DNA from: Spinacia oleracea
Lineage: Eukaryota; Streptophyta; Magnoliopsida; Caryophyllales; Amaranthaceae
Reading direction: 5' to 3'
DNA: 64,000 bases
NCBI RefSeq assembly: GCF_020520425.1
Contig: NC_079492.1
Span: 58,899,042 to 58,963,041 of the forward strand
Shown here: positions 16,090 to 58,630 of the stretch, in pieces
Layout of the letters: each line of letters begins with the position of its first letter
Position numbering within the stretch: the stretch's first letter is position 1
The notes under the pieces: generated by a model
What the model was told of the DNA's origin: nothing
Databases searched by the model: none
Seen by the model: only the letters and a program-made list of their open reading frames with translations
Made by a program: the position numbers and the translations under genes

Positions 16090-16185
16090 TCTTCCTCTTC
16101 CTCCTCTTACTCTTCCTCTTCCTCTTCCGCCGCCTCCTCCTCCTCCTCCGCCTCCTCCTCCTCCTCCTCCTCCTCCTCCACCTCC
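16090..16185. repeat. CTC/CTT-rich tract encoding the acidic tail of TNP2
   Basis: Trinucleotide-rich cctcctcct sequence is read on the minus strand as a run of Glu with a few Ala. It forms the last ~30 residues of the TNP2 exon 4. Confidence 0.85.
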
Positions 16186-19100
16186 TCATATTCATGAGAG
16201 GAAAGCACTTGAGTTTCTTCATCGCTTTCTACAAATTCTTCGGCCTGAAACTCGGATAGCAATGAAGGGTTTTCATTGGCTAGTAATTGGAAAGCCATAG
16301 GATCAATTGGGGCATCAATAATTCCCCTTGCCTTTACATCAAAAACAAACCACCATTGATTTCTTCCAATGTTGTTAGTTGGAGAAGGAGCATAATAGAC
16401 TTGCTCAACTTGGTAGGCCAGTACAAACGGGTCATACTTTGGATATCTCTTTGAATGATTCACCTCAACAAGATTGTACTTTTCATGTATCCTAGTACCA
16501 CGTCCAACATCAAACCAATCACACTTAAACAACATTGTTGTGTGACGCTTTCTTGCTCCGACATAAGTCAATTCCACCACTTCTTGAAGAATGCCATAAA
16601 AATCATCTCCCTGGACACTTTTTACACAAACACCATAGTTCATAGTTGACTTATTCTTTCCATAAGCAAACGTATGAAAATGATATCCATTAATGTGATA
16701 TCGATTGAATTTTCGAACTCTTGTCAGTGGTCCTGATGCCAATGAGCGAATAATGTCAGTATTAATGCCCTTTTTCAATACCTATAATAATAGATGGAGC
16801 AATATGTCACTATGGTTATTGACTTGAATGATCAAAATACAAGTTAATATAAATATAAATATAATATATATTTGTGTACTTATCACAAAGATTAACTTAC
16901 ATAGTCCCTGAACCAATCAGGATATTTGTCTTCGCATTTAATCCAAACTTCATCTGAATTTTGACACCTTCGCTCGCTTATCATTTGTTCTTCAAATAAA
17001 CTGTTAATTATTTTAGTATTTACACATATTAAGGACTTGTAGGTAATATATATATAATTTAAAATCAAATAATATTACCTTTGATATTGTTGTAATATTT
17101 CACAATTACTTAGAACATATCGATGAGCGACTTTGTAATCCTTTTCATCAAGGTAACAAAATTGGCCTTCCGAAGAACTATGCCCAATAATTGAAGAAAA
17201 CATCTCAGGTAGATCGGGATCAATGTTTGATTCATTATCAACACATGTACCCAATCCTAAATCTTTCACCTTACAGTTAACATCTTCTTCAAAGTAAAGA
17301 GAGCAAAAATTTGTTATCTCCTCTAGTAGGTAAGCATTGCAAATTGAGCCTTCCACTCGAGCTTTATTACCCACCTTCTTTTTTAAATGGTATACAAACC
17401 TAGAGGGTAAAATTATTTGTTATAAATCTTATAACTATATTATTAAAATAATTAAAGTTCTACAAGAATTTAGAATGTTACCTCTCAAAAGGGTACATCC
17501 ACCTATACTGAACCGGGCCACCAACTTTTGCCTCATAAGGCAAATGAATAGGAAGATGTTCCATTGAATTGAAAAATCAGGTGGAAATATTCTCTCTAAC
17601 TTGCAAAGAATTTCAGGAATATTATCCTCTAAGCGCTCCATGTGATCAACTTTCAAGGTGGTTGAGAAAAGATCTCTAAAAAATTGGCTCAATTCAGTGA
17701 TTACATTCCACTCATTTAGGGGCAACAAATCTTTAAAAACGACAGGAAGCAACCGTTGCATAAAAACATGGGAATCATGACTTTTCATACCGAATAGCTT
17801 ACATTCCTTTAAATCGACGCAATAGCCTAAATTTGAAGCATAACCATCAGGAAACTTTAGTTTCTTCACCCATTCACAAACAAGTTTCCTTTTATCTTTG
17901 GGCAACACAAAAGGAGCATTCAGCATTATGGTTACTTCCTTCCCTTTACTGTTAACAACATCTCGAGCCTCCAACTTCCGTCGTTTACAATACACTTTCA
18001 AGTCTCTTCTTGCCTTCACATTGTCTTTAGTTTTCCCCTTGACATCCATTACAGTGTGAAACACATTATCAAACACATTTTTTTCGATGTGCATGAAATC
18101 AAGATTATGACGTATCAAGAGTTTGCTCCAATATGGAAGCTCCCAAAAGACACTCTGCTTTGTAAAATGGTGCAAAACACCAAACCCTTCTGGACGGTCA
18201 ACTTCATCCCTTATACACTCAAGGGTTGTTGGAATCAAAGATACACGATTCCAAACTTCTTCTCCACTCAATCGTGGCGGGGGAGAAGAGTTTTCAACTG
18301 TGTCTTTGCGAAAAGCACTCTTATTTTTTCGAAAAGCGTGATCACGGGGTAAAAACGGTCGATGACAATCAAACCAACTTTGTTTTCCACCATTGGTAAG
18401 AGTGAATGCCTTAGTCTTTTCCATACAATAAGGACAAGATAATCTACCTGCCGTGCTCCATCCCGAAAGCATGCCATATGCCGGAAAATCACTGATTGTC
18501 CAAAGCAATGCAACCTTCATTTGGAAATTTTGTTTCTTAGGGATGTCATAAGTCGGCAATCCTACCTCCCATAGTTGTTTTAATTCTTCAATAAGAGGTT
18601 GCAAGAACACATCCAGATTCCCTTTTGGGCTTTTTGGACCTGGAATTATCAAACTTAGAAACATAAAAGGTTTCTTCATGCACAACGAGGGTGGAAGATT
18701 ATAAGGAGTCAAGATGACGGGCCAACAAGAATATTGCCTCCCGGTCTTCCCGAACGGTGAAAATCCGTCGGCACAAAGACCAAGTCGAACATTTCGAGGC
18801 TCGGCGGCAAACGATTCATACTCCTTATCTAGGTGCTTCCATGCCTCTCCATCACTTGGATGAGACATTAGGCCATGAGCTCGAGGATTATCATTGTGCC
18901 ACCTCATTTTCTCAGCAGTAGATTTTGTTGCATATAGTCTCTGCAATCTCGGGCCGATAGGGAAATAAATCAGAACGCTATGAGGAGAATTGTTGCTATT
19001 TTCCCTTATTGTCTTATAACGACTTTCCTTACAATAAAGACATTCTTTGAGATCTTTGTGTTCCTTCCAAAATAACATGCAACCATTTGGACATACATGT

Positions 19101-19732
19101 ATCCTTTGGTGAGGAAGCTCTAGCCCTGCAAGTAGCTTCTTTGTCTTGGAAAAACTATCAGACATCTTACTTTCATCCGGGCACATGTCTCTCATCAAGG
19201 AAGCAACGTCGTCTACGCCTTTTATAGGAATATTATACTCACACTTGATGTTAGCCAGCCTTGCAGCAGCCGCTAACAAAGACAACTTAGAACCATCATG
19301 TAATGGATCCTGAGCTGCCTTCAACATGTCAAAGAACTTCTTGAAACTAGGATGCGGTTCCTCTTCAATATCTTCTAAATGACCTTCTTGTGCAAAAGCA
19401 TCTTGCACCATGCTTATATAAGGGTTAGAGGCATCCTCAGTGGATGTGGAGCAAGAACTTTGAGAATTTTTCTGGGAGTGTAATTCCCCGTGATAAACCC
19501 ACTGGAAATAGTTAGGCTTAAAACCAAACTTATAGAGATGCTCCTTTACAGTGTCTATATCTTGATATGGAATATTTCGACACTTTGCACATGGACATTT
19601 CATCATACCATCTAACACAACATTATCTTTGGTGGTAGCAAACGCAATAAATTCACCGACCTTGTTAGCAAAGGTTGGGCTAAGAAAATTTCCCTCTAAC
19701 CTATTATACATCCATTCTCGATTATCCCTCAT
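16107..19732 (-). pseudogene. TNP2 transposase of the CACTA element, four exons, one-base frameshift
   Basis: Exons on the minus strand are 19732-17482, 17399-17079, 17000-16901 and 16781-16107, all with GT-AG borders and compatible phases. Exon 1 has a Cys-rich transposase-associated domain (about residues 3-82, KCPCAKCRN) and a CPNGCMLFW Cys cluster near 214. It then has the Transposase_21 core with LCADGFSPFG (Asp322) and ISDFPAYG (Asp415), and LDFMHIEKN (about 544). The DUF4218 region starts near 660. Exon 4 carries a DUF4216 region ([18 protein letters not shown]) and a Glu-rich tail. At about 17571-17576, after Phe720, one T is missing from a T run. The expected motif (SMEHLPIHLPYEAKVGGP) continues in the next frame to the splice site. 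The exon sum is 3,347 nt, one short of a multiple of three. TNP2 catalyses excision and insertion. The start ATG follows a possible acceptor tgcag, so a 5' leader intron is likely. Confidence 0.92.
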
Positions 19733-20360
19733 AATAGAAACTGCATAACATTTAAACATGAATGCGGAGTAATTGTTTAGATAATAATTATGATGATGAT
19801 GAACACTAACAACAATAACAGTAGTAGTCGTCTTGTGAGGCAGGTACGAAAGTACAGAGGCAAACAACTTAGAAAAATAACATATCAAAAAGCAGCAGCA
19901 CATCCAGCATGGTCAACTTTGGCCTTAACACACAAGTCAACATTTCTGGTTATAAACAGTAGAACATTACTGAGCACAACAACAAACAGAACTAGATCAA
20001 CAAACTGAGGTTCAGAACTTAGCAAACCAGGAATATTAGAACTTAGCATACCAGAAATATGCGAACTCAGCAGACCGGGAATATCAGAACTTAGCAGACC
20101 CTGTTTCAAGCAGCTTGACAGAATTGGTAGTCCATCATTAACCTAAATTGCGATTAAACCACCTCTAATTAACTATACTGCTACTTAGTTTACTTTTTAT
20201 TCTTTCTTGACTAAGGATCAAATAAGTCTAATCCATATTCTCTGTTGAGATTGTTTTCAAGCATTTTCACTCTAATGTCAGCTAGTGGTATCCTACTTAT
20301 TTTCTGTTATCAATCCCCCATCTTGCTGGAAAAAGTTCCAATTATCATGCATTTTGTGAT
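19733..20360 (-). other. 5' leader/intron of the CACTA transcript with duplicated segments
   Basis: 19855-19980 repeats 10860-10990 (gaggcaaacaacttagaaaa, agcagcagcacatccagcat, ggttataaacagtagaacat). 19970-20060 is also similar to 14425-14500. At 20020-20100 there is a short tandem repeat of cagaacttagcaIaccag type (gaacttagca + taccagaaat). No coding exon is supported. Confidence 0.5.
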
Positions 20361-20494: not shown

Positions 20495-21471
20495 GTATTT
20501 TCTTTGACTAACAATGACTTTGGGGTCAACTACGTGAGCAAGTGAAAGTTCGATGTGTTCATCAGATTATTGTGCTTGTGGTTTTGTTATAACATGGAAC
20601 ATGGTTTTCTTCTAAAAGTTGTATAGATTAGTCACAGATTTAGTCATTTAAAAATCGTTGTCAGAATATGAGTTTTTGCAGAATGTGAATTTGAACACCA
20701 AACAGTAAATCTAAACACACAAATAGATTTGTTGCCTCTCCACCTCCACATCATAAACTTAAGAAGATAGACTGATTCAGATTCCAGCACTCCCAAGAAC
20801 ATGCTCGAAAAAAGGTAACAACTAACCAACCAGCAATCCTAGCTCCAATGAACTTGTTACTTGCCACTCTATGGACTGTCTAATGCAAGTCGAACACACT
20901 AAACTTACAAATCCAGCAAGAATCTAAGCTCCAACATATTGGCAAGGAAAATTCGAATCTACATCAAAATATTATTAAATTCATCAATTTGAAAACCCCA
21001 CCAAGAATTCAAGACTTAAACAGAATCCAAGTGGCAGCCAAAATTCCACAACTCAATTCAGAATCTTTACTAAAAACACACTAAATTCTAAGCACCAAAA
21101 TGAAAGAACATAGCCTTTCAAAGATTCTCACACTTAGAACAGAAAAATAAGGCGAAATTCAACCAAATAAGAAAATCAAATTCAGAATTAAATCCAAAAT
21201 TGAAATCAATTAAAATTGAAAGAGTTTACTAACTGGGCAACAACAAGAAAGGAGAAAAGAAAAAAATGGTTGGGTGGGAACTTTGAAGCATGATGTTTTT
21301 CACAACTATCTCCCTGTTCACAACCTTGGATACCAATTTAATGGCGTTATGGCAGTAACTACATATACTTAGATACTTGCACACTCTCACTGTCATACCT
21401 TCTACAGCTTTTAACAAGCCAAAGGATACTGCGAGCTTCTCACTATGTCCCCTCAATATTTGTAATTTCTC

Positions 21472-21834
21472 TTATTGTCCTACATCATGAAGCACTGAGC
21501 TAGTATCAGGAACATAACCATATTTACTGATCTTCTCCTCTAATACACTCCACATTTCTCGAATCTCTTCTGATTTAGAAAGCATGTGATCACCAACCAC
21601 AAAATTATAAATCTTCCCTCCAACTTCAATCCAACTACAGCCAGCATCTTTCTGAAGACCTTTCTCCCTCATCTTTTCCCTCACACTTCTAACATCGCCC
21701 CACTTACCTGATTGTGCTAGTATATTTGATACTAAAACATAGTTCTCTACCCTATTTGGATCTAGTTGTAGCAGTTTCTCAGCTGCCATTCTTCCTAAAT
21801 ACTTATTGCCATGAGTCCTACAAGAGCTAACCAA
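21472..21834 (-). pseudogene. Pentatricopeptide-repeat (PPR) protein fragment, E/E+ region
   Basis: The ~120-residue frame matches the C-terminal E and E+ motifs of plant PLS-class PPR proteins: SSCRTHGN, then AAEKLLQLDP, NYVLVSNI, GLQKDAGCSWIEVGGKIYNF, and YGVPDT-type YGYVPDTSSVLHDV. It stops after VLHDVGQ, where a DYW domain would start. No repeats of the PPR array precede it. PPR proteins bind organellar RNA; this fragment cannot. It is inside the CACTA element and in the same orientation as its genes, so it is likely a captured fragment that may be transcribed as part of the leader. The first codon shown is TTG; the frame simply begins in mid-protein. Confidence 0.85.
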
Positions 21835-21959
21835 ATGTCTTTCACAAACTCCATTGCTTCATACAGGTATGTCATTGATTTTTCTGGAAATCTGGAGAAA
21901 GTTGTCTCTCTATTCTCTCCTCTTCTAGCCCCCTTAACTAGCAACCTTTTAGTTGACCA

Positions 21960-27057: not shown

Positions 27058-27066
27058 TTAATTAAT

Positions 27067-28566
27067 CGGAAATTTCATGAAATGCCCTCGAGTTTTGCCA
27101 TAATTCACCAAACGCCCATCAAGTTTCAATAATTCATAAAATACCCCTCACAATTCGTACAAATACCCAACATACCCTTACTAATAACGGGCCGTTAGTC
27201 CGCCGTTAGCCAAGTTTCCAATTCACCCAAATGCCCCTATTCTGAAACTTATTTCACCAAATGCCCCTAGTAGGAAACTTATTTTACCAAATGCCCCAAA
27301 TTTAAATATAGCTATTCTGATGTTCCGACAACTAGTTTTTGTGTTTGAAAAGTGGTTCTTGGTCATGGTTGGCTATAAAAACCCCTTTGCTGAATGGTTC
27401 TTGTATTTTAGATGTTATTTTACTTTACTTTGCTAATTTCATAAGATTTGTGTCATGAGTTTTCTTTCAAAATCATCTTCCACACCCAATGAGTCCACAT
27501 ATATTAGGGTACCTAACAAATTTTGTTATTGTGGTAGGAATGGAGGTTGAAGTGGTGTTCCACAAGCTCTTCTGGATAGCTGTTAATGCTTTTTGGGGTA
27601 GTTTTTTGCACATCTGTTTTGATCTTGCACATATTCATTGAGTAGAAAATAACATTAAATGTAGTTGGTGCAAAGATGTTTTGTAAGTGAAGCTAAAAAC
27701 AGAAATGCTTCCCAGTTTGGTATTTTGTGCAGATTATGCAACATCAATTATTTATGAAATGTGAATTTGTTTCTCATTACTTGTGTTTACTTCATGATTA
27801 CAAACAGTAAAATTACAAACATCAATATCCCCATTTGTATTACAACTTTGCCTACTTTTTGTTGTTGTTTTAGCTTCTTCTTCATTTGCTTCAATTCTTC
27901 TTGCATCTTACTGTTTCGCCTGTTTTCAATACTTTCTCCTTCGCCTAAGCTTCCCCCGCATTGTCCTTCGTGTTGTTGCCCCTTGTTTTTTTGCTCAACT
28001 ACTCCCTTTCACCATCTTAGATTGTTTCAAGGATCACACTTGTAGTACAACCTTTGTGGATTGAGTGTTGTATCAAAACTTCGAATGACAAATTTCCTAC
28101 CACAATGACAAAAATTGGTAGGTACTCTAGTATATGTGGACTCATTGGGTTTGGATGATGATTTTGAAAGAAAACTCATGACAAAAATCTTATGAAATTA
28201 GCAAAGCAAAGCAAAATAACATCTAACTTACAAGAACCATTCAGCAAAGGGGCTTTTATAGTCAACCGTGACCAATAGCTACCTTTCAAACACAAAAACT
28301 AGTCGCTGAAACATCAAAATAGCTATACTTAAGTTTGGGGCATTTGGTGAAATAAGTTTCACAATAGGGGCATTTGGTGAAATAAGTTTCAGAATAGGGG
28401 CATTTGGGTGAATAGAAAACTTGGCTAACGGCAGACTAACGTTCCGTTATTAGTAAGGGTATGTTGGGTATTTGTACGAATTGTGAGGGTATTTTATGAA
28501 TTATTGAAACTTGATGGGCGTTTGGTGAATTATGGAAAAACTCGAGGGCATTTCATGAAATATCCG
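27067..28566 (-). mobile_element. Mutator-like element (MULE) with ~470-bp inverted arms, 1,500 bp
   Basis: Long inverted arms (27067-27540 and 28566-28096) begin CGGAAATTTCATGAAATGCC and are inverse copies over about 470 bp. The element is flanked by the perfect 9-bp target duplication TTAATTAAT (27058-27066 and 28567-28575), the Mutator hallmark. It has no transposase. Its passenger is a GRF zinc-finger gene on the minus strand. The first ~30 codons of that gene lie inside the right arm, so the left arm carries an inverted copy of the same gene start. Confidence 0.9.
27787..28179 (-). pseudogene. GRF-type zinc-finger protein with coiled coil and membrane helix, two in-frame stops
   Basis: From the ATG at 28179 one frame of 130 codons runs to a TAA at 27787, broken only by TGA at codons 51 (28029-28027) and 57 (28011-28009). 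Residues 24-48 show the GRF zinc-finger pattern CHCGR ... NPQRLYYKC, and the two TGA codons stand where Trp or similar residues would be expected (DP-stop-NNLRW-stop-KG). Then come a Gln/Gly linker, a coiled coil at about 91-109 (MQEELKQMKKKLKQQQ), and a hydrophobic C-terminal helix (MGILMFVILLFVIM). This order is common in plant GRF proteins. Its function is nucleic-acid binding by family inference; here it is inactivated. The left arm of the host MULE repeats the first ~28 codons on the plus strand (CYCGR), ending at a stop near 27550. Confidence 0.82.
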
Positions 28567-28659
28567 TTAATTAATTGAAGTACAACTAATGAATACATTA
28601 CTAATTAGGTCCTTTTCTCGAGATGGATCGATGTTTAGTAACGGTACCACTTTGATGAA

Positions 28660-29225
28660 TTAATGGCAAAGTGAAGGTTCGTTAAAGAAGAGTTCACAAT
28701 ACCAATTACAACATTGGAGGTTCATGAAACACTGGCCTCTAGTACCTGGAGCCATACATTGAACTGTCCCCATCTGTCTCGCGATAGTGTAAGCAACCAT
28801 GGCTTCTTTCAACCCATCAACGCTTCTGCTCGAAACGAGTTGGTTGTGATAAGCATTTGCATTATTATTTTTGTTATTATCAATATTACTATTAGGTAGT
28901 ATTTCTTGTTTAAGAGGACCACGTAGTAGCTCTATGTTACTTCCCTCTTCAATTTCTCGTACCATCATAACCTCGTCACTCACTCTGCCTTCTGCTTGGA
29001 TTCTTCCCATTACTGTGGTCTGTGGGACCTATTTTGTACATCAAATTCTCATCATTAGCTACCATAATGTATGAAATCGACGTTAAAAACTTAATTAAAC
29101 AGTACAGTACTACGTAAATAGTAAATAGTAAATAGTAAAAAGTAAATAATAATTATTTATATACCTGCTATAGCCAACATCAAAACTGCAAAGAGTGCCA
29201 TGGATGAAATTGACTGCTTCGCCAT
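28660..29225 (-). CDS. Secreted six-cysteine (cystine-knot type) antimicrobial-like peptide precursor, two exons
   Basis: Exon 1 (29225-29165) encodes a signal peptide MAKQSISSMALFAVLMLAIA. Exon 2 (29012-28660) joins in phase if the acceptor is gaccacag|TAATG, giving 137 residues. The predicted precursor has a signal peptide to about residue 28. An Asn-rich, acidic propeptide follows (to about residue 100). The C-terminal domain has cysteines at 106, 115, 121, 122, 126 and 136 (C-x8-C-x5-CC-x3-C-x9-C). This is the knottin arrangement, similar in order to the six-cysteine antimicrobial peptides known from Caryophyllales (Mirabilis and Phytolacca types), but with different loop lengths and a long propeptide. 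A TATA box sits ~88 bp upstream of the ATG. An upstream AG (29030-29029) would give the wrong frame. Likely secreted; antimicrobial activity is inferred. It is the only intact-looking host gene in the window. Confidence 0.72.
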
Positions 29226-29311: not shown

Positions 29312-29321
29312 CTATTTATAC
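29312..29321 (-). promoter_or_regulatory. TATA box of the six-cysteine peptide gene
   Basis: The minus-strand GTATAAATAG lies 87-96 bases upstream of the ATG at 29225, a normal plant spacing with a ~60-base leader containing caatcaaaatatataataaa. Confidence 0.7.
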
Positions 29322-45000: not shown

Positions 45001-46059
45001 TTAAATTTTGTTGATTACGTGATTATTGAGCTGTGTTTTTAAATTTGTTTTTGATTAGCGAATTTTGATTTCGTTATTGATCTGTTTTGCTTTTGGTTTT
45101 TTGATTTGTTTTTTATTTAGTTTTTTTTTATTTCCTGATTTGTTTTTGATTTAGTTTTTTTTTTATTTTCTATCCTTTCCTCTCCTCTTGGCCTCCGTTA
45201 TGTGGCCTTTGCCTGTTTCCGTAGCCTCATAATTGTTGGTTGCCTTTTACACATTGTCTGATTATTTTTGTTTCTTACTTTGGCAGTGCCCTCTTACATT
45301 GAAAGTTCCCTCGCTTCGTGGCCGTTTGCAGTGGTCTGTTTGATATTCGCCCGTTCTTTTGAGGTAATCTCCATTACTATGTTTAGTAGTTTTTGTTGAC
45401 TCCTGTTTCTTATCGAGTCTGCATGTATGGACGTGCCTTTTTTAATAACGCATATTGCTTTGTTAGCTAAACAGTGAAGTAGCTTTATGGGGGGAGGGGA
45501 AAGTTGAGAGAACCTATAATAAGGCTGATATGTTGCTTTCATAACCACTGTTGTGTTAGTTTCTGCTTGACTACATCGTATTCATGTTCTGTTAGGTGTC
45601 CAAATTAGGCCTCCGATGTTTGCGTGTTCATTGTCATGGGATACTCTTGGTTCCTTACTATTGCTGGTGAAGTTTCACATGCTTTTTGGCAGAGTAGTTT
45701 ACAGGTCCTCCACATGCCGGTTAGGTTTGACTATCTTTTGTTTTGCACCCTTGGCCCTATGAGGCACTCACCAGTCTTCCTAAGGATACTGTGTTTAGTG
45801 TACCTGTGATTCCAACGTGCATTCAGTGTTTTAGTTGTAGTAGCCACGTTTGCCACTATGGGAAAACCAAATCTTTGAGGGTTCCAAGTAAGCCAATGCT
45901 ACGCAGAATAGTGTACATGTTCTTTTTCTTGAGCCTTGGTTAGGGATCTGACAGCGTCTTTCTGATATTATCACTTTCGTAGGCACTACGTATATCTGCC
46001 TGTCTTCTCTTCGAACTTATAAGGTTAACCTTGTGTTATTTTCTTCACCCGTACAGGTC
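42066..46059 (+). other. Leader/intron-like region 5' of the Helitron-related genes
   Basis: T-rich plus-strand sequence with overlapping short frames of no family (42399-43562). A possible TATA motif is gtatatatag near 43571. A leader-like stretch with cttagggtttttcctcactc follows at 43640-43720. No transposon end or conserved exon was identified; a Helitron 5' terminus was looked for and not found. Confidence 0.4.
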
Positions 46060-47071
46060 ATGTCTGCAGCACCTACGCAAATTGTGATTTGCTTCTACTC
46101 TTTGTTGAGGAAGATTACTGACTGCCTCAACTTGCATGAACCGGTCTTCCAGTTTCTAGATATTGATAAGAATAATGCATGTGTGGTTGTCAAGACGGGG
46201 TGTGGGCCCATTAGTTATGTGTATGTTGGCGGGGAAGCTGGGAAACTAGAGGATTCATGTGAGAGGGCGGCACAGAAAGCTGTCCGTGATCTTATCAAGA
46301 AGTACAAGGTGCGTGTTACAGATGTAACATCTGAGAGGAGGAAGCTGTATGAGAGATGTGCTGAGTTATATTTCCTTAAAAAGGCGGCCTTGGAACGTGT
46401 GGAGAAGGGGAACAAGAAGGGTGTTCTGCCTGAGGATAATGACAGTGAGGGTGATTGTGGGTATGTTAAGCATGTGACTGTGGATTTTGTGTCGATTCTC
46501 CGCCTTATTGTCAGGCATACTGGAGTTCTTAGCTCAACTGTTGAGACTGTCGAGCATTCCCCTGACCAGTTCACTTCATGGTTTACAGTATCACTTTCAG
46601 GCCGCACTGGTGTTGGTTTTTAATGCATTTTCAGTGACCGTTGTCCCACCCTTGCTGCTGCTAAGCAATCTCTTGCAAAAAAGGCAGTGTCCTACTTGGT
46701 CGGTGTGTGGAACTTAAAGATTGTTGATGCAAACTATGACCCTTCCACTCTGAAATTTGATGCTCTGTTATGTGATCTTCAAAAGGAAAGCTATTTAACT
46801 GTCAAGGAACGTATGCTTGGGGATCAAGGAAGAACTTCGCCTCTCGCCGCTTCTTGTAGAAGAGGACTGCTTAACTCCTCGGGGATCGATGTTCCAAATC
46901 CCTTCCCTTGATTCACCTCCGTTGCCCTTGAAAAAGCATAAAATGAACCTTCCTCCTGGAGAGGCATCTGTTGTTGTGGCATCTAAATCTGATGTCCCGG
47001 TATTTTTCTCGGTTCCATCCGAACTTGAGCTTGTGTTCAAGCGCCAGAAGTCTGCTTTATCTCTAGAATGA
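46060..47071 (+). pseudogene. Protein with two dsRNA-binding-like domains, one stop and one frameshift
   Basis: ATG at 46060 (MSAAPTQIVICFYSLLRKI) follows a possible acceptor cccgtacag. Residues ~38-85 resemble a double-stranded RNA-binding fold: an Ile/Tyr-rich strand region (GPISYVYVGG), then a helix with EDSCERAAQKAVRDLIKKY. A second copy (TSWFTVSLSG ... IFSDRC ... AAAKQSLAKKAVSYL) is split by a TAA at 46621-46623. The frame simply continues after it. At about 46812-46818 the protein-like frame shifts to give EELRLSPLLVEED ... VFKRQKSALSLE and a stop at 47071. Such two-domain proteins occur with plant transposons in related species, but I cannot name the family. It lies upstream of the RepHel exons on the same strand. 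An LTR fragment starts 50 bp after it. Confidence 0.6.
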
Positions 47072-51608: not shown

Positions 51609-54600
51609 ACAAGCTCCTTTACCCACCGTCTCCAATCACACGCCGAGCCACACGGCAACGGACTATTGAAAACACGGGCCACCTGACCTCGCCCAGGTAG
51701 GTTACCTGTTTAGGAGAACCTTACTCATCTGCATATGCTCTAACAAACTAACACTCTTTCTGGAATCAACAGCGAGCCTATTCAATCTACACCTGAGTCA
51801 TCAAATCAATCGAAAATACGTTGTCCCCTGCCACCCTTAGGATGTAAGCCACTTGTATATCATGCCTTGCCTTAATAGCGTTCGCTCTTTAATCCTCCCG
51901 AACTTGACATCTTTTGTGTTTGATCTCAGCTGCTTCGGTTGTGTCACAAGCGTCACTGCTTTCTGCAAATGCTTTTCCATATTACTCATCGACCTCAGGG
52001 GAACGTAGTAGCAAGCGCTTCAGGGCTACCCAAGGGTTGTATATAAGTGGTGTTGTGCCGGCTACACAGCTCCAACCTCTCTCTACCTCACAAAGGTACT
52101 CTTATGTTGCTGCATTGCATGGTAAAGGTCTGCTCAATTGTATTAAATAGTGTGCTTACTCTTCTTTTGTAATGCACAGTGAGGTGGGCGGTTCGGCCTC
52201 TGGCGAGCCTGACCTAGGAGCACCTACCGTGTCAAGGAAAGCGCGTCGGGCTGCACGTAAACAAAGTAATCTCCTTCTACCCCACTATTATTTAGGTTCA
52301 CTGCCCCTTTATGGAACACCCTGTTAATACTTACATTATGTCTAACCAGAGGTGCCCTCGGCTGTTATCGGTCAGCCTTTACCCCATAAACCCTTGGAAC
52401 TCCCTCTCCCTCAATACTGCCCTAAATGTAACGCAAAGAAATTTGCTTATGAGTCCGTTCATTTTTGTTGTGGCGATGGAGAAGTAGATCTTCCTTCCAA
52501 CGAATACCCTGATGAACTTGTGAGGCTCTTTACATCTCAAGATGAAGATGCCTTGCATTTCAGAACTTACGCTCGCCTTTATAGCAACCTTTTCGCATTT
52601 AGTTCCCTAGGAGGGGATGTTGATGCAAAGACTCAAAAAGGAATTTACGTCTTTAAGTTGCATGGCCAGATTTATCACTATATCCCTGATTTGCTTCCCA
52701 ACAATGACAACCCTAAATATCTACAACTTTATTTTTATGATTCCCAACATGAAGCTGCAAATCGACTTGGTTGTTTCCCAGAATTGAGAGAAGATGTGAT
52801 TAATATCCTAATGAATATTACCCAGAAAAATCCGTACGCCAGGTTTTTTCGTTCCTTGAAAGAAATGGAGGTTACTGAAAATACACAGATAGTTATCAAT
52901 AAAAATACAGTACTTGACCAACGCGTATATAACGCTCCTACCTCTGACGAGGTTGCTGTCATTTGGCCTGAAAGCACCTCGTCCAGTGAGTCTAGGGGGC
53001 CACACATCCTTGTGTCTGGCAAATCCAATAAGTCTCACCGCATTATGCACTATTACGGCTGCTATGATCCATTGCAGTACCCGCTCTTGTTCCCAAGCGG
53101 TGATTGTGGTTCGAACCAGGGCCTAAAAAAGATGTCCAATGGTGGCCGTACACAGCTAAACTGCCAACAGGACCCAGTCATGTCATGTGCTGTGCACACT
53201 GCTGAAGATTTGTTGTCAGAGGAGGGACTCCGTATGTTCAGCCTTCTCTTAACTCTCAAATTGCTTAGTTGCACAGTTGCTTACTGTTACAGACGCCTTA
53301 ATCTTCCCTTTAATTCGTTTAAGCTGTACTGGAATATTACGTATCCTTACATTGACTGGTCAATTTATGTATTGTGTGGTTATTTGTATCTTCTCTCCAT
53401 ATTTTTATTAGTTATTTATTATGTGATTGGAATCTTTGGAGAACGTTGTTCTCTTTCGTGGTGCTTACTCCCATTGTTGCAGTATCTTCTGTTCTTGGTC
53501 TTTCATTGATATGCATCTGCATTTCAAAGCCTAAGTTGCATCTCTTATTTGTGTTCACATTTGCATGCCTACATTTTCTAATCAAGCTTCCTTGATGTCT
53601 GGTCAAATTGCAATGCTCCTTATGGATGATTGAAATTTGTTGGCTTCTTTGTGTTCAAATTTGTTTGCTGTGCACCTGCGGTTAAGCCCCTTCCAATTGT
53701 AGTATTACTGTTTTTTTTCTCTTACCCTCTTATAGAGGCAAATTTGCTTTTCTTTAGGCTGCCTATTGTTTTTAATATGGCTCTTAACACTAACAACTTT
53801 GTTGTTGAGGCAGAAGTGGTTCAATCATGTCAAGTTAGGGCTGTTGTTTTAGAAAATGTCCAGCCCCTGCCTCCCTGACCTCGCACTGCACTCATCTATT
53901 TTGGTGTGAATTGTTACTATATGGTAGTGTATGGTTATACATTTACCTTTACATTATGTTGTTCTGAACCTCATTACTTTGACAAAACAATTGCTTATAT
54001 TGGTTTATAATATGAAGATACTTATCATGAATACATGTTGTCCTTGTTTCAGGTGCGAGTGGAGGACACACTAAAGGGGATAAACATATCTCTGCAAGAG
54101 AGTACTATGCGTACAAGCTCCAAAGTCGTCCTAACAACTTACTTCTCAGAGCAGGAAGATGTTTCCAACAATACATTGTAGACATGTATGTCAAGATTGA
54201 AAACACCCGCCTTGACTTCTTCCGAAAAAATCAGGACACAATTAGGGCAGACCTTTACCAGGGAATTCTTGACACTGTTGAACGTGGTGAAAACAGCGCG
54301 GCAAATGTGGGGCGTCGTGTTGTGCTACCACCAACCTTCATTGGAGGTCCTCGGGATCTAAAGAAGCGGTATCTAAACGCAATGTCTCTTGTGCATCGCT
54401 ATGGGAAACCAGACTTGTTTGTCACCATGACTTACAACCCTGCATGGCCTGAAATCAAACAAGAACTTGGTGTCGGGGAAGATGCACAGAACCGACCTGA
54501 TCTGGTGTCACGGATATTCCGGGCAAAATTGTTAGCCTTGAAAAAACAGATCATGCAGAAACATGTGTTCGGCGAGGATGCTGCACTGATCTATGTTGTC

Positions 54601-54686
54601 GAGTTCCAGAAACGGGGTTTGCCTCATGCACATTTCCTGATCATACTCAAACCGGATTTCAAAATCAAAACTCCAGCTGATTATGA
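51609..54686 (+). pseudogene. Helitron RepHel protein, N-terminal half, six exons, truncated by a CACTA insertion
   Basis: Six exons with GT-AG borders and consistent phases: 51609-51696, 51773-51843, 51930-52095, 52180-52265, 52350-53231 and 54053-54686. The first four are low-complexity and Arg/Ser/Pro-rich (SRKARRAARKQ). Exon 5 has CPKCNAKKF with a following CC (zinc-finger-like), then the conserved YNAPTSDEVAVIWPE and YYGCYDPLQYPLLFPSGD. Exon 6 has REYYAYKLQSRPNN, then DMYVKIENTRLDFFR, PPTFIGGPRDLKKRYLNAM, DLFVTMTYNPAWPEI and EFQKRGLPHAHFLIIL (the helitron-like N domain). The HAHFLI segment is the Rep metal-binding HxH motif. The Rep catalytic Tyr residues and the helicase are absent, because the coding frame is cut within a codon by the CACTA end. 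Rep nicks DNA and the helicase unwinds it during rolling-circle transposition. The first exon shown is probably not the first. Confidence 0.88.
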
Positions 54687-54692
54687 CACTAG

Positions 54693-55110
54693 TACAAAAA
54701 AGCTCTTATGCGGGCTCATTTTAAGGGCTTTTGTGCGGGCTTTTACATGTGCATCACTTGCCATGCCCGCACTTGACATTTCTCAAGTGCTGCCAATATT
54801 TGAGCCCGCACAAAACTATCTTTGTGCTGCCAATTTAGAAAATGTGCCCGCACTTGACAACTTTGTGCTGCCAATTTTCGAATACGTGCCCGCACAAAAC
54901 AAACTTTGTGCTGCCAATTTTCGAATACGTGCCCGCACAAAACAAACTTTTTGCTGCCAATTTTTTTAAATGTGCCCGCACTTGACAACTTTTGTGCTGC
55001 CAATTTTTGGAATGAGCCCGCACTTGACAAAAACTTTGTGCTGCCAATTTTGTAAATGTGCCCGCACTTGACAACTTTAGTGCTGCCAATTTTGGGAATG
55101 AGCCCGCACT
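54693..55110. repeat. Subterminal repeats, ~36-bp unit (gtgcccgcacttgacaac...)
   Basis: Eight or more copies of a unit combining gtgcccgcac, ttgacaactt and tgtgctgccaattttc, with variant spacing. Overlapping frames on both strands (AALKLSSAGTF-type) are artefacts of this repeat. The CG-bearing gcccgcac core is the likely protein-binding word. Confidence 0.85.
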
Positions 55111-55344
55111 TGTGATATATATACGAGCCTATAAACGAGACGTATTTGTTATATATCCTATTTTCCTGCCACATATTTTATATAATTGGACCACGCCACT
55201 AATAAACCTCCATACATCATATAAAAAGTACCCAATTACATAGATAATTAAATTGTACAGTAGAAAATTCGAGGCCATTACAATCATAAAAAAAACTAGC
55301 ATCCGTAACCTAAAATTCACTACAAGGAAATATCAAAGACAATA

Positions 55345-55475: not shown

Positions 55476-55574
55476 CGACAATAAAAAATATATATACACT
55501 TTAGTTAGTTATATTATAAATATTGTATCGTAAAATAAAGTAACACCAATGCTCATACCAATGAAATAAAGAAT

Positions 55575-58500
55575 AAAACTGTCATTTTCGCTCCTAACTC
55601 TTAACTAATGAACCTAAAAAGGTATTTGAAACCATACATATTTAACATACTTGGTTTTATGTTTCTAAGCCTCGTTCTTACCTATTTTGGTTAAGTTATG
55701 CACATTTAAGGGTCGTTTGATCGTTATATGTCATATTTTGACTAATATTGTCGTTTTCGCTCCTAACTCTTAACTAAAGAACCTAAAAAGGTGTTTGAAA
55801 CCATATACATGTTTAACATACTTGATTTTATGTTTCTAAGTCTGATTCTTACCTATTTTGGTCATGTTATGCACATTTAAGGGTCGTTTGATCGTTATAT
55901 GTCATATTTTGACTAAAATTGTCGTTTTCGCTCCTAACTCTTAACTAAAGAACCTAAAAAGGTGTTTGAAACCATATACATGTTTAACATACTTGGTTTT
56001 ACGTTTCTAAGTCTCGTTCTTACCTATTTTGGTCAAGTATGCACATTTAAGGGTCGTTTGATCGTTATGTCGTATTTTGACTAAAATTGTCGTTTTCGCT
56101 TGTAACTCTTAACTAATGAACCTAAAAATGTGCTTGAAACCATATACATGTTTAACATACTTGGTTTTATGTTTCTAAGTCTCGTTCTTACCTATTTTGG
56201 TCAAGTTATGCACATTTAAGGGTCGTTTGATCGTTATATGTCATATTTTGACTAAAATTGTCGTTTTCGCTCCTAACTCTTAACTAAAGAACCTAAAAAG
56301 GTGTTTGAAACCATATACATGTTTAACATACTTGGTTTTATGTTTCTAAGTCTCATTCTTTATTTTGGTCAAGTTATGCACATTTAAGGGTCGTTTGATC
56401 GTTATATGTCATATTTTGACTAAAATTGTCGTTTTCGCTCCTAACTCTTAACTAAAGAACCTAAAAATGTGTTTGAAACAATATACATGTTTAACATACT
56501 TGGTTTTATGTTTCTAAGTCTCATTCTTACCTATTTTGGTCAAGTTATGCACATTTAAGGGTCGTTTGATCGTTATATGTCATATTTCGACTAAAATTGT
56601 CGTTTTCGCTCCTAACTCTTAACTAAAGAATCTAAAAAGGTGTTTGAAACCATATACATGTTTAACATACTTGGTTTTATGTTTCTAAGTCTCATTCTTA
56701 CCTATTTTGGTCAAGTTATGCACATTTAAGGGTCGTTTGATCGTTATATGTCATATTTTGACTAAAATTGTCGTTTTCGTTCCTAACTCTGAACTAAAGA
56801 ACCTAAAAAGGTGTTTTAAATCATATACATGTTTAACATACTTGGTTTTATGTTTCTAAGTCTCATTCTTACCTATTTTGGTCAAGTTATGCACATTTAA
56901 GGGTCGTTTGATCGTTATATGTCATATTTTGACTAAAATTGTCGTTTACACTCCTAACTCTTAACTAAAGAACCTAAAAAGGTGCTTGAAATCATATACA
57001 TGTTTAACATACTTGTTTTTACGTTTCTAAGTCTCGTTCTTACCTATTTTGGTCAAGTTATGCACATTTAAGGGTCGTTTGATCGTTATGTCATATTTTG
57101 ACTAAAATTGTCGTTTTCGCTCCTAACTCTTAACTAATGAACCTAAAAATGTGCTTGAAACCATATACATGTTTAAAATAATTGGTTTTATGTTTCTAAG
57201 TCTCGTTCTTACTTATTTTGGTCAAGTTATACACATTTAAGGGTCGTTTCATCGTTATATATCATATTTTAACTAAAATTGTCGTTTTCGCTCCTAACTC
57301 TTAACTAATAAACCTAAAAAGGTGTTTGAAACCATATACATGTTTAACATACTTGGTTTTATGTTTCTAAGTCTCATTCTTACCTATTTTGGTCAAGTTA
57401 TGCACATTTAAGGGTCGTTTGATCGTTATATGTCCTATTTTGACTAAAATTGCCGTTTTCGCTCCTAACTCTTAACTAAAGAACCTAAAAAGGTGTTTGA
57501 AACCATATACATGTTTAACATACTTGGTTTTATGTTTCTAAGTCTCATTATTACCTATTTAGATCAAGTTATGCACATTTAAGGGTCGTTTGATCGTTAT
57601 ATGTCATATTTTGACTAAAATTGCCGTTTTCGCTCCTCACTCTTAACTAAAGAACCTAAAAAGGTGTTTGAAACCATATAAATTTTAAACATACTTTGTT
57701 TTATGTTTCTAAGTCTCATTCTTACCTATTTTGGTCAAGTTTTGCACATTTAAGGGTCGTTTGATCGTTATATGTCATATTTTGACTAAAATTGTCGTTT
57801 TTGCTCCTAACTCTTAACTAAAGAACCTAAAAAGGTGTTTGAAACCATATACATGTTTAACATACTTGTTTTTATGTTTATAAGTCTCGTTCTTACCTAT
57901 TTTGGTCAAGTTATGCACATTTAAGGGTCGTTTGATCGTTATATGTCATATTTACACTAAAATTGTCGTTTTCGCTCCTAATTCTTAACTAATGAACCTA
58001 AAAATGTGTTTGAAACCATATACATGTTTAACATACTTTGTTTTATGTTTCTAAGTCTCGTTCTTACCTATTTTAGTCAACTTATGCACATTTAAGGGTT
58101 GTTTGATCGTTATATGTCATATTTTGACTAAAATTGTCGTTTTTGCTCCTAACTCTTAACTAATGAACCTAAATAGATATTTTAAACCTTTTACATGTGT
58201 AATATACTTCGTTTTATGTTTCTAAGTCTTATTCTAACCTAGTTTGGTTAAGTTATGCACATTTAAGGGTCGTTTGATCATATCGTTATATGTCATATTT
58301 TGACTAAAATGACCGTTTTCACTCCCAACTCTTAACTAATGAACCTAAATAGGTATCCCAAACCCATTACATGATTAATATACTTATTTTTCTATTTCTA
58401 AGACTCATTCTTACCTAGTTTGATCAAGTTATGCACATTTAAGGGTCGTTTGATCGTTATATGTCATATTTTGACTAAAATGTCTGTTTTCGCTCCCAAC

Positions 58501-58630
58501 TCTTAACTAATGAACCTAAATAGGTATTCCAAAGTCCAAACCTTTTACATGTTTAATATACATATTTTTATGTTTCTAAGACTCGTTCTTACCTAGTTTG
58601 ATCAAATTATACACATTTATAGTATAATAT
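55575..58630. repeat. 171-bp tandem array, ~18 units
   Basis: The marker gtcgttttcgctcctaactc recurs at about 55582, 55751, 55922, 56090, 56261, 56429, 56600, 56771, 56942, 57111, 57282, 57453, 57624, 57795, 57966, 58137, 58313 and 58484. The spacing is 171 bp in most cases, with a few of 168-176. The last three units are clearly more diverged. The unit includes ggtcgtttgatcgttatatg and aaccatatacatgtttaaca. There is no coding capacity. Confidence 0.95.

Follow-up and report, generated by a model that had tools for sequence, protein, structure and literature searches.

Plant knottins that share one arrangement of six cysteines are made from precursors of more than one design. In the class defined in PMC5743680 as 6C-HLP (CXnCXnCCXnCXnC, non-chitin-binding), both two-domain and three-domain precursors are found. 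Among the 15 bleogens of the cactus Pereskia bleo, a pro-domain occurs in 14 (pB2-pB15), pB1 having a two-domain precursor; Portulaca and Talinum are also reported to have three-domain forms (PMC5743680). The same paper associates antimicrobial members of the class with precursors of two domains and with knots that are rich in Lys/Arg and bear a cation-polar-cation clip (PMC5743680). Roseltide rT1 of Hibiscus sabdariffa, an elastase inhibitor, has a precursor of 28 + 35 + 27 residues, and the spacing of the roseltides ranges over CX6-8CX2-7CCX3-4CX4-13C (PMC5171801). Spinach itself has the SOTI knottins, trypsin inhibitors whose inhibitory loop is the one that links Cys V to Cys VI; in SOTI-III this loop has 10 residues, with Arg at P1 (PMC3795654).

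Here we describe a spinach gene that resembles these systems in some respects and differs from each of them in others. It lies in a 64,000-nucleotide stretch of Spinacia oleracea DNA (hereafter, the window), at 28660-29225 on the minus strand, with its ATG at 29225 and its stop codon at 28660. The model, whose internal consistency can be read directly from the DNA, comprises a signal-peptide exon, a phase-1 intron and a second exon; the predicted splice joins a frame of 137 amino acids. An initial annotation of the locus had proposed a signal exon, a phase-matched second exon and six cysteines in a set order, and the joined frame shows all of these. Exon 1 (29165..29225, 61 nt, minus strand) encodes MAKQSISSMALFAVLMLAIA plus one base, includes the signal-peptide core and ends in phase 1 at GCAG/GTATAT. 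The intron (29013..29164, 152 nt, minus strand) is of the GT-AG type, in phase 1, with a GC content of 0.263, and its exact acceptor is uncertain. Exon 2 (28660..29012, minus strand) carries the propeptide, the knot and the stop codon. The TATA box of the initial annotation is also present: TATAAAT starts at 29320 (29314..29320, minus strand), 95 nt upstream of the ATG, and would presumably act as a promoter element.

The signal core reaches a hydropathy of 3.03 (best 12-residue Kyte-Doolittle mean), a value attained by 6 of the 358 unspliced ATG 35-mers in the window. By this simple hydropathy measure, the protein has a secretory signal peptide. In exon 2, the frame of the gene alone has a positive codon score (0.101, versus -0.14 to -0.51 in the others, which are penalized for stops), and its GC content by codon position is 0.50/0.37/0.35. 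For shorter pieces the score is less discriminating: another frame slightly outscores the gene frame over the knot alone (0.042 versus 0.023), and two other frames exceed it over a 59-nt stretch of exon 1 (0.143 and 0.188 versus 0.059). Open frames of at least 122 codons are expected 0.2 times per 14 kb of local shuffle, and the length of exon 2 is not decisive by itself. Our verdict is that the gene is real and intact-looking, and that it belongs to a known general kind of six-cysteine knottin.

The six cysteines occupy residues 106, 115, 121, 122, 126 and 136, and thus form C-x8-C-x5-CC-x3-C-x9-C. The motif (CMAPGTRGQCFMNLQCCNWYCELFFNEPSLC, 28666..28758, minus strand) was located by a pattern scan and could be aligned with relatives described below. 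A looser pattern, C-x6-9-C-x4-9-CC-x3-4-C-x6-13-C, occurs once in the six frames of the window, and 60 first-order Markov shuffles gave a mean of 0.017 occurrences per window by chance. The adjacent Cys III and Cys IV follow the order of the CXnCXnCCXnCXnC (6C-HLP, non-chitin-binding) knottins. The putative mature peptide (28663..28776, minus strand) would comprise 38 residues, with a predicted N-terminus at Q100. It contains 1 Lys/Arg, an Arg, and 2 Asp/Glu and is not cationic.

As is predicted for the window gene, bleogen precursors combine the CXnCXnCCXnCXnC arrangement with a signal, a pro-domain and a mature peptide, and they too come from the order Caryophyllales. The initial annotation had set the locus apart from Caryophyllales six-cysteine peptides, to which it ascribed little or no propeptide. 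However, pB2-pB15 and the forms from Portulaca and Talinum contradict this generalization, and the contrast fails because three-domain precursors from Caryophyllales have already been published (PMC5743680). Roseltides have three-domain precursors, as is predicted here, and the spacing of the window knot (8, 5, 0, 3, 9) lies inside the roseltide range. When the two are compared by their descriptions, the putative pro-domain here, at about 72-79 residues, is roughly twice as long as the 35 residues of roseltide rT1. Also, rT1 has an Asn directly before Cys I (an asparaginyl endopeptidase site), whereas the window protein has none at this junction; the residues before C106 are ...IARQMGTVQ, and the nearest Asn or Asp upstream of Cys I are N77 and D86. 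The SOTI trypsin inhibitors, again compared by description, are six-cysteine knottins from the same species. Their P1 Arg has no counterpart here: loop 4 of the window knot, ELFFNEPSL, is hydrophobic and one residue shorter than the 10-residue loop of SOTI-III, and its 9 residues include no Arg or Lys.

Mj-AMP and PAFP-S also have six cysteines, of which the third and fourth are neighbors, but these are two-domain and cationic, whereas the window precursor probably has a propeptide and its knot is not cationic. Bleogen pB1, described as cationic and heparin-binding, differs from the window knot in charge as well. The cysteine order, which is the same as in Mj-AMP, PAFP-S and bleogen pB1, is what would favor a cationic-type antimicrobial six-cysteine peptide. 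However, a count of 1 Lys/Arg against 2 Asp/Glu argues otherwise, as do the absence of a cation in loop 4, which leaves no cation-polar-cation clip there, and the likewise acidic or near-neutral character of the relatives. The Lys/Arg-rich composition of antimicrobial 6C-HLP members is also lacking. Antimicrobial action, which the initial annotation had put forward, is therefore not favored, and we consider a peptide of this type quite unlikely.

To place the gene among its possible relatives, its own genome (894,210,420 bases) was searched. With the full protein as query, four candidates were scored and three matches were obtained, two of which are the gene's own exons. The third (L003) is 6.7 Mb away, with a genome-scale E-value of 5.7, and consists of a six-cysteine frame on the minus strand, TEACIATGEEGCVLNSECCSHYCNWWHFNPAWGHCE followed by a stop, that is able to start at an AG acceptor. 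About 1.5 kb upstream of this frame is a candidate signal exon, MKKHSISFIFKLALLIIFLVMIL, with an in-phase donor G/GTATGT; it was chosen as the most hydrophobic, at the top of nine candidate rows. The resulting model (L004) has a 1517-nt phase-1 intron and would encode a two-domain precursor with the knot C-x7-C-x5-CC-x3-C-x11-C. Used as a query, the L003 knot recovered two further places, L007 (87%) and L008 (55%). For L008 the one candidate row supplies a signal exon, MEKYSFSFVFKLALLLMFLVLIS, with the donor G/GTATAT that is also used by exon 1 of the window gene; this model (L011) has a 6922-nt phase-1 intron and predicts a two-domain precursor of 63 residues. At L007 (L010, C1:54702600-54712500) the knot is intact, the acceptor position reads ACAA where L006 has ACAG, and a scripted search detected no signal exon. 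In a fourth place (L009/L012, E-value 1.64) five cysteines of the motif are present, Cys VI being missing in L012. Complete gene models are therefore available for two of the four related places (L004 and L011), and the other two (L007/L010 and L009/L012) look decayed. Both complete models consist of a signal exon, a phase-1 intron and a knot, with no propeptide. They resemble the window gene in that a phase-1 intron interrupts them close to where the signal ends, and in the x5 loop 2 and the x3 loop 3, and they differ from its preferred model in having no propeptide and a loop 4 of x11 rather than x9 (L004/L006 and L011/L008).

Similarity to the window gene extends beyond the cysteines. When the window knot was compared with L006, L007 and L008, three comparisons that are not independent of each other, 0, 4 and 0 of 2000 cysteine-fixed shuffles reached the observed scores. 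The signal peptides are weakly similar, with 25 and 156 of 2000 shuffles reaching the scores. In an alignment of the four knots, T, G, G, N, Y and P are invariant in addition to five aligned cysteines. Cys VI of the window knot is misaligned with that of the relatives, because loop 4 has 9 residues in the former and 11 in the latter. In searches of the genome, a query consisting of just the window knot matched nothing but its own locus, the window gene was absent from the matches of the L003 knot, and the E-values linking the window protein with the relatives were not significant (5.7 for L003). Membership in a family with L004, L007 and L008/L011 finds support in similarity beyond the cysteines and in intron phase, but it is weak by genome-wide E-value and the searches are not reciprocal. 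Common descent is likely, although not proven. The initial annotation had asked for homologues with conserved cysteines, and likely ones, with the same cysteine order, are present in the plant's own genome.

With reasonable confidence, we read the locus as a nuclear gene, found once, for a secretory-pathway precursor in which a signal is followed by some 72-79 residues of propeptide and, at the C-terminus, by a CXnCXnCCXnCXnC knot. The gene has probably diverged from the other members of a small family of knottins in this genome. The family may be larger than the set found here. The earlier view of a secreted precursor of the cystine-knot type is supported.

Searches of Pfam, NCBIfam and PHROGs assigned the window protein to no family, and the few matches listed were unrelated and below cut-off. 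Against the PDB, no relative naming the protein was found by sequence, either with the protein itself or with an X-masked, cysteine-only query. Antifungal_pept (PF11410), the family of Mj-AMP and PAFP-S, did not appear among the matches of the window protein or of its knot with E-values up to 10, nor among those of the relatives. For the L004 precursor, the AtDEF-like family PF25052 was matched with an E-value of 0.0081 and 16.9 bits, versus a cut-off of 25; two conotoxin families (E-value 0.04 or worse) and two unrelated Pfam families also matched the relatives below cut-off. The best PDB matches of the relatives are animal cystine-knot peptides, with E-values no better than 0.07, and unrelated proteins rank behind them; this is at most a hint about the fold. 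Among bacterial and viral sequences, none of 56 and none of 6 pattern stretches was confirmed as related. The interpretation given in the initial annotation is supported in part: no Pfam, NCBIfam or PDB match names the protein, and it has likely homologues in its own genome.

The pro segment deserves separate discussion. In the preferred model, as the initial annotation had described, a long, Asn-rich and acidic segment separates the signal from the knot; it spans 72 residues from E28 to R99 (28777..28992, minus strand), or 79 if counted from V21, and the 72 residues include 10 Asn, 11 Asp/Glu and 8 Lys/Arg. Its GC content is 0.402, with values of 0.524/0.333/0.346 by codon position, a bias of the coding type. 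The codon score, observed directly, is 0.131 in the frame of the gene and negative in the other five. In 40-nt steps, GC content rises from 0.10-0.30 in T-rich sequence to 0.40-0.50 at about 29040 and dips to 0.23-0.30 over the Asn-rich part. A run of 83 open codons has a chance probability of 0.0014-0.0025 under two Markov models. Because of the composition shift near 29040, the in-frame codon score and the 83-codon open frame, the propeptide is probably real coding sequence. The full-length protein query of the 894,210,420-base genome found no second copy of the segment. An unusually long spacer before the knot seems to distinguish this gene from its two complete relatives, which appear to have none.

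The extent of the propeptide depends on the choice of acceptor. Donor 29164 was paired with 12 AG acceptors between 29100 and 28980, of which five keep the frame (29013, 28995, 28992, 28989 and 28983) and seven truncate it. Site 29013, which we chose, has T in only 2 of the 20 positions upstream, and its use is uncertain because the truncating sites 29029 and 29020, a short way upstream, have somewhat more T before them (6 of 20 and 4 of 20). Alternative donors, for example 29186, hold the frame but cut the hydrophobic core of the signal. A further AG just before Cys I (28764..28765, minus strand) is frame-compatible and would skip the propeptide; an exon starting at 28763 would yield a 54-residue precursor.

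The segment that we call a propeptide could therefore be intron, with acceptor 28764 joining MAKQSISSMALFAVLMLAIA through VQ to CMAPG... in a two-domain precursor, or both forms could be alternative splices. Such a splice would give a clean signal-plus-knot protein in phase, and in both complete relatives the part of the second exon that precedes Cys I encodes a few residues. However, it would delete a segment with in-frame coding signal, positive in the gene frame only, and treat as chance an open frame that would rarely arise so. Also, the change from T-rich and AT-rich to exon-like sequence falls at about 29040 and not at 28764, and the sequence preceding 28764 (GAGACAGATGGGGACAG) is purine-rich. 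We regard this explanation as unlikely. A more elaborate variant strikes us as decidedly doubtful: acceptor choice would produce two precursors, one of 137 residues whose propeptide leads to the vacuole or to delayed maturation and one of 54 residues for direct secretion, the propeptide being an exonised intron in a family that otherwise runs from signal to knot. We retain the gene with its propeptide as the preferred model.

Just downstream, 84 bp past the stop codon, begins a Mutator-like element (27067..28566), classified by its inverted arms (about 484 bp, 92% alike) and by a 9-bp target duplication, TTAATTAAT, at 27058-27066 and 28567-28575. A piece of this element resembles a GRF zinc finger (PF06839, E-value 0.032, below cut-off) whose start lies inside an inverted arm. 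A scan for six AATAAA-like hexamers over 28659-28200 gave one match, AATAAT at 28505; because this falls within the element, the 3' end of the transcript may derive from it. The nearness of the element, along with the broken appearance of other family copies (AA for the acceptor AG in L007/L010, no Cys VI in L012), could suggest a decaying gene copy or a chance open frame beside a transposon. We judge this very unlikely, as the gene retains an intact frame, signal and TATA box, all six cysteines and a codon signal over the pro segment.

For the wider surroundings, 30 further open frames were scanned against Pfam (29 of the 129 with at least 70 codons, plus one of 56 codons), and the unscanned frames may hold more domains. 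The description of the window as a transposon-only landscape is nearly right, given above-cut-off domains of a CACTA element at 16-20 kb and of a Helitron at 54 kb, but a remnant of a PPR-DYW gene lies at 21.2-21.9 kb. Specifically, the scan identified a CACTA-type transposase (tnp2, DUF4216 and DUF4218; 16110-19912, minus strand), the E motif and DYW domain from the C-terminus of a PPR protein (21232-21858, minus strand; both lie in a single frame, which an in-frame stop interrupts), and a Helitron N-terminal domain (54031-54966, plus strand), whose end is overlapped by about seven copies of a 43-bp tandem repeat (54820-55112). A satellite-like array of a 171-bp unit occupies 55574-58619 (17.8 copies, 92% matches), and a 223-codon open frame at 45952-46620 (plus strand) has no Pfam match.

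If the preferred model is correct, processing, fold and function might be as follows. The signal would direct the chain to the endoplasmic reticulum, where the acidic pro segment may maintain solubility, assist folding or target the chain to the vacuole. A protease would then cleave the pro segment, either after Asn or Asp in its Asn-rich part or after R99, the latter exposing a cyclisable Gln. The knot presumably has disulfides I-IV, II-V and III-VI, and would act through loop 4 as a stable enzyme inhibitor of the defence type rather than as a cationic, membrane-active antimicrobial. By analogy, a defence-type inhibitor knottin is the most likely function, and most likely one whose target enzyme prefers hydrophobic residues, because in SOTI inhibitors it is the Cys V-Cys VI loop that acts, and this loop is here ELFFNEPSL. 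A secreted cysteine-rich signaling peptide with a reproductive or developmental role, in which the knot is incidental, seems to us rather improbable. The peptide is indeed diverged and acidic, with low similarity to defence families, but the propeptide-bearing knottins named in the literature surveyed are inhibitors or defence peptides.

In both other complete models the knot directly follows the signal, which implies that a propeptide was gained in the window gene or lost in the relatives. The passages surveyed yielded no description of a route from a propeptide-less to a propeptide-bearing six-cysteine knottin precursor, or the reverse. Both kinds of precursor seem to occur in one genome, where they agree in intron phase and have related knots, and therefore the gain of a propeptide would be datable and testable here. 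If the window knot does inhibit an enzyme, the known specificities of plant knottins may be extended by one that is not directed at trypsin.
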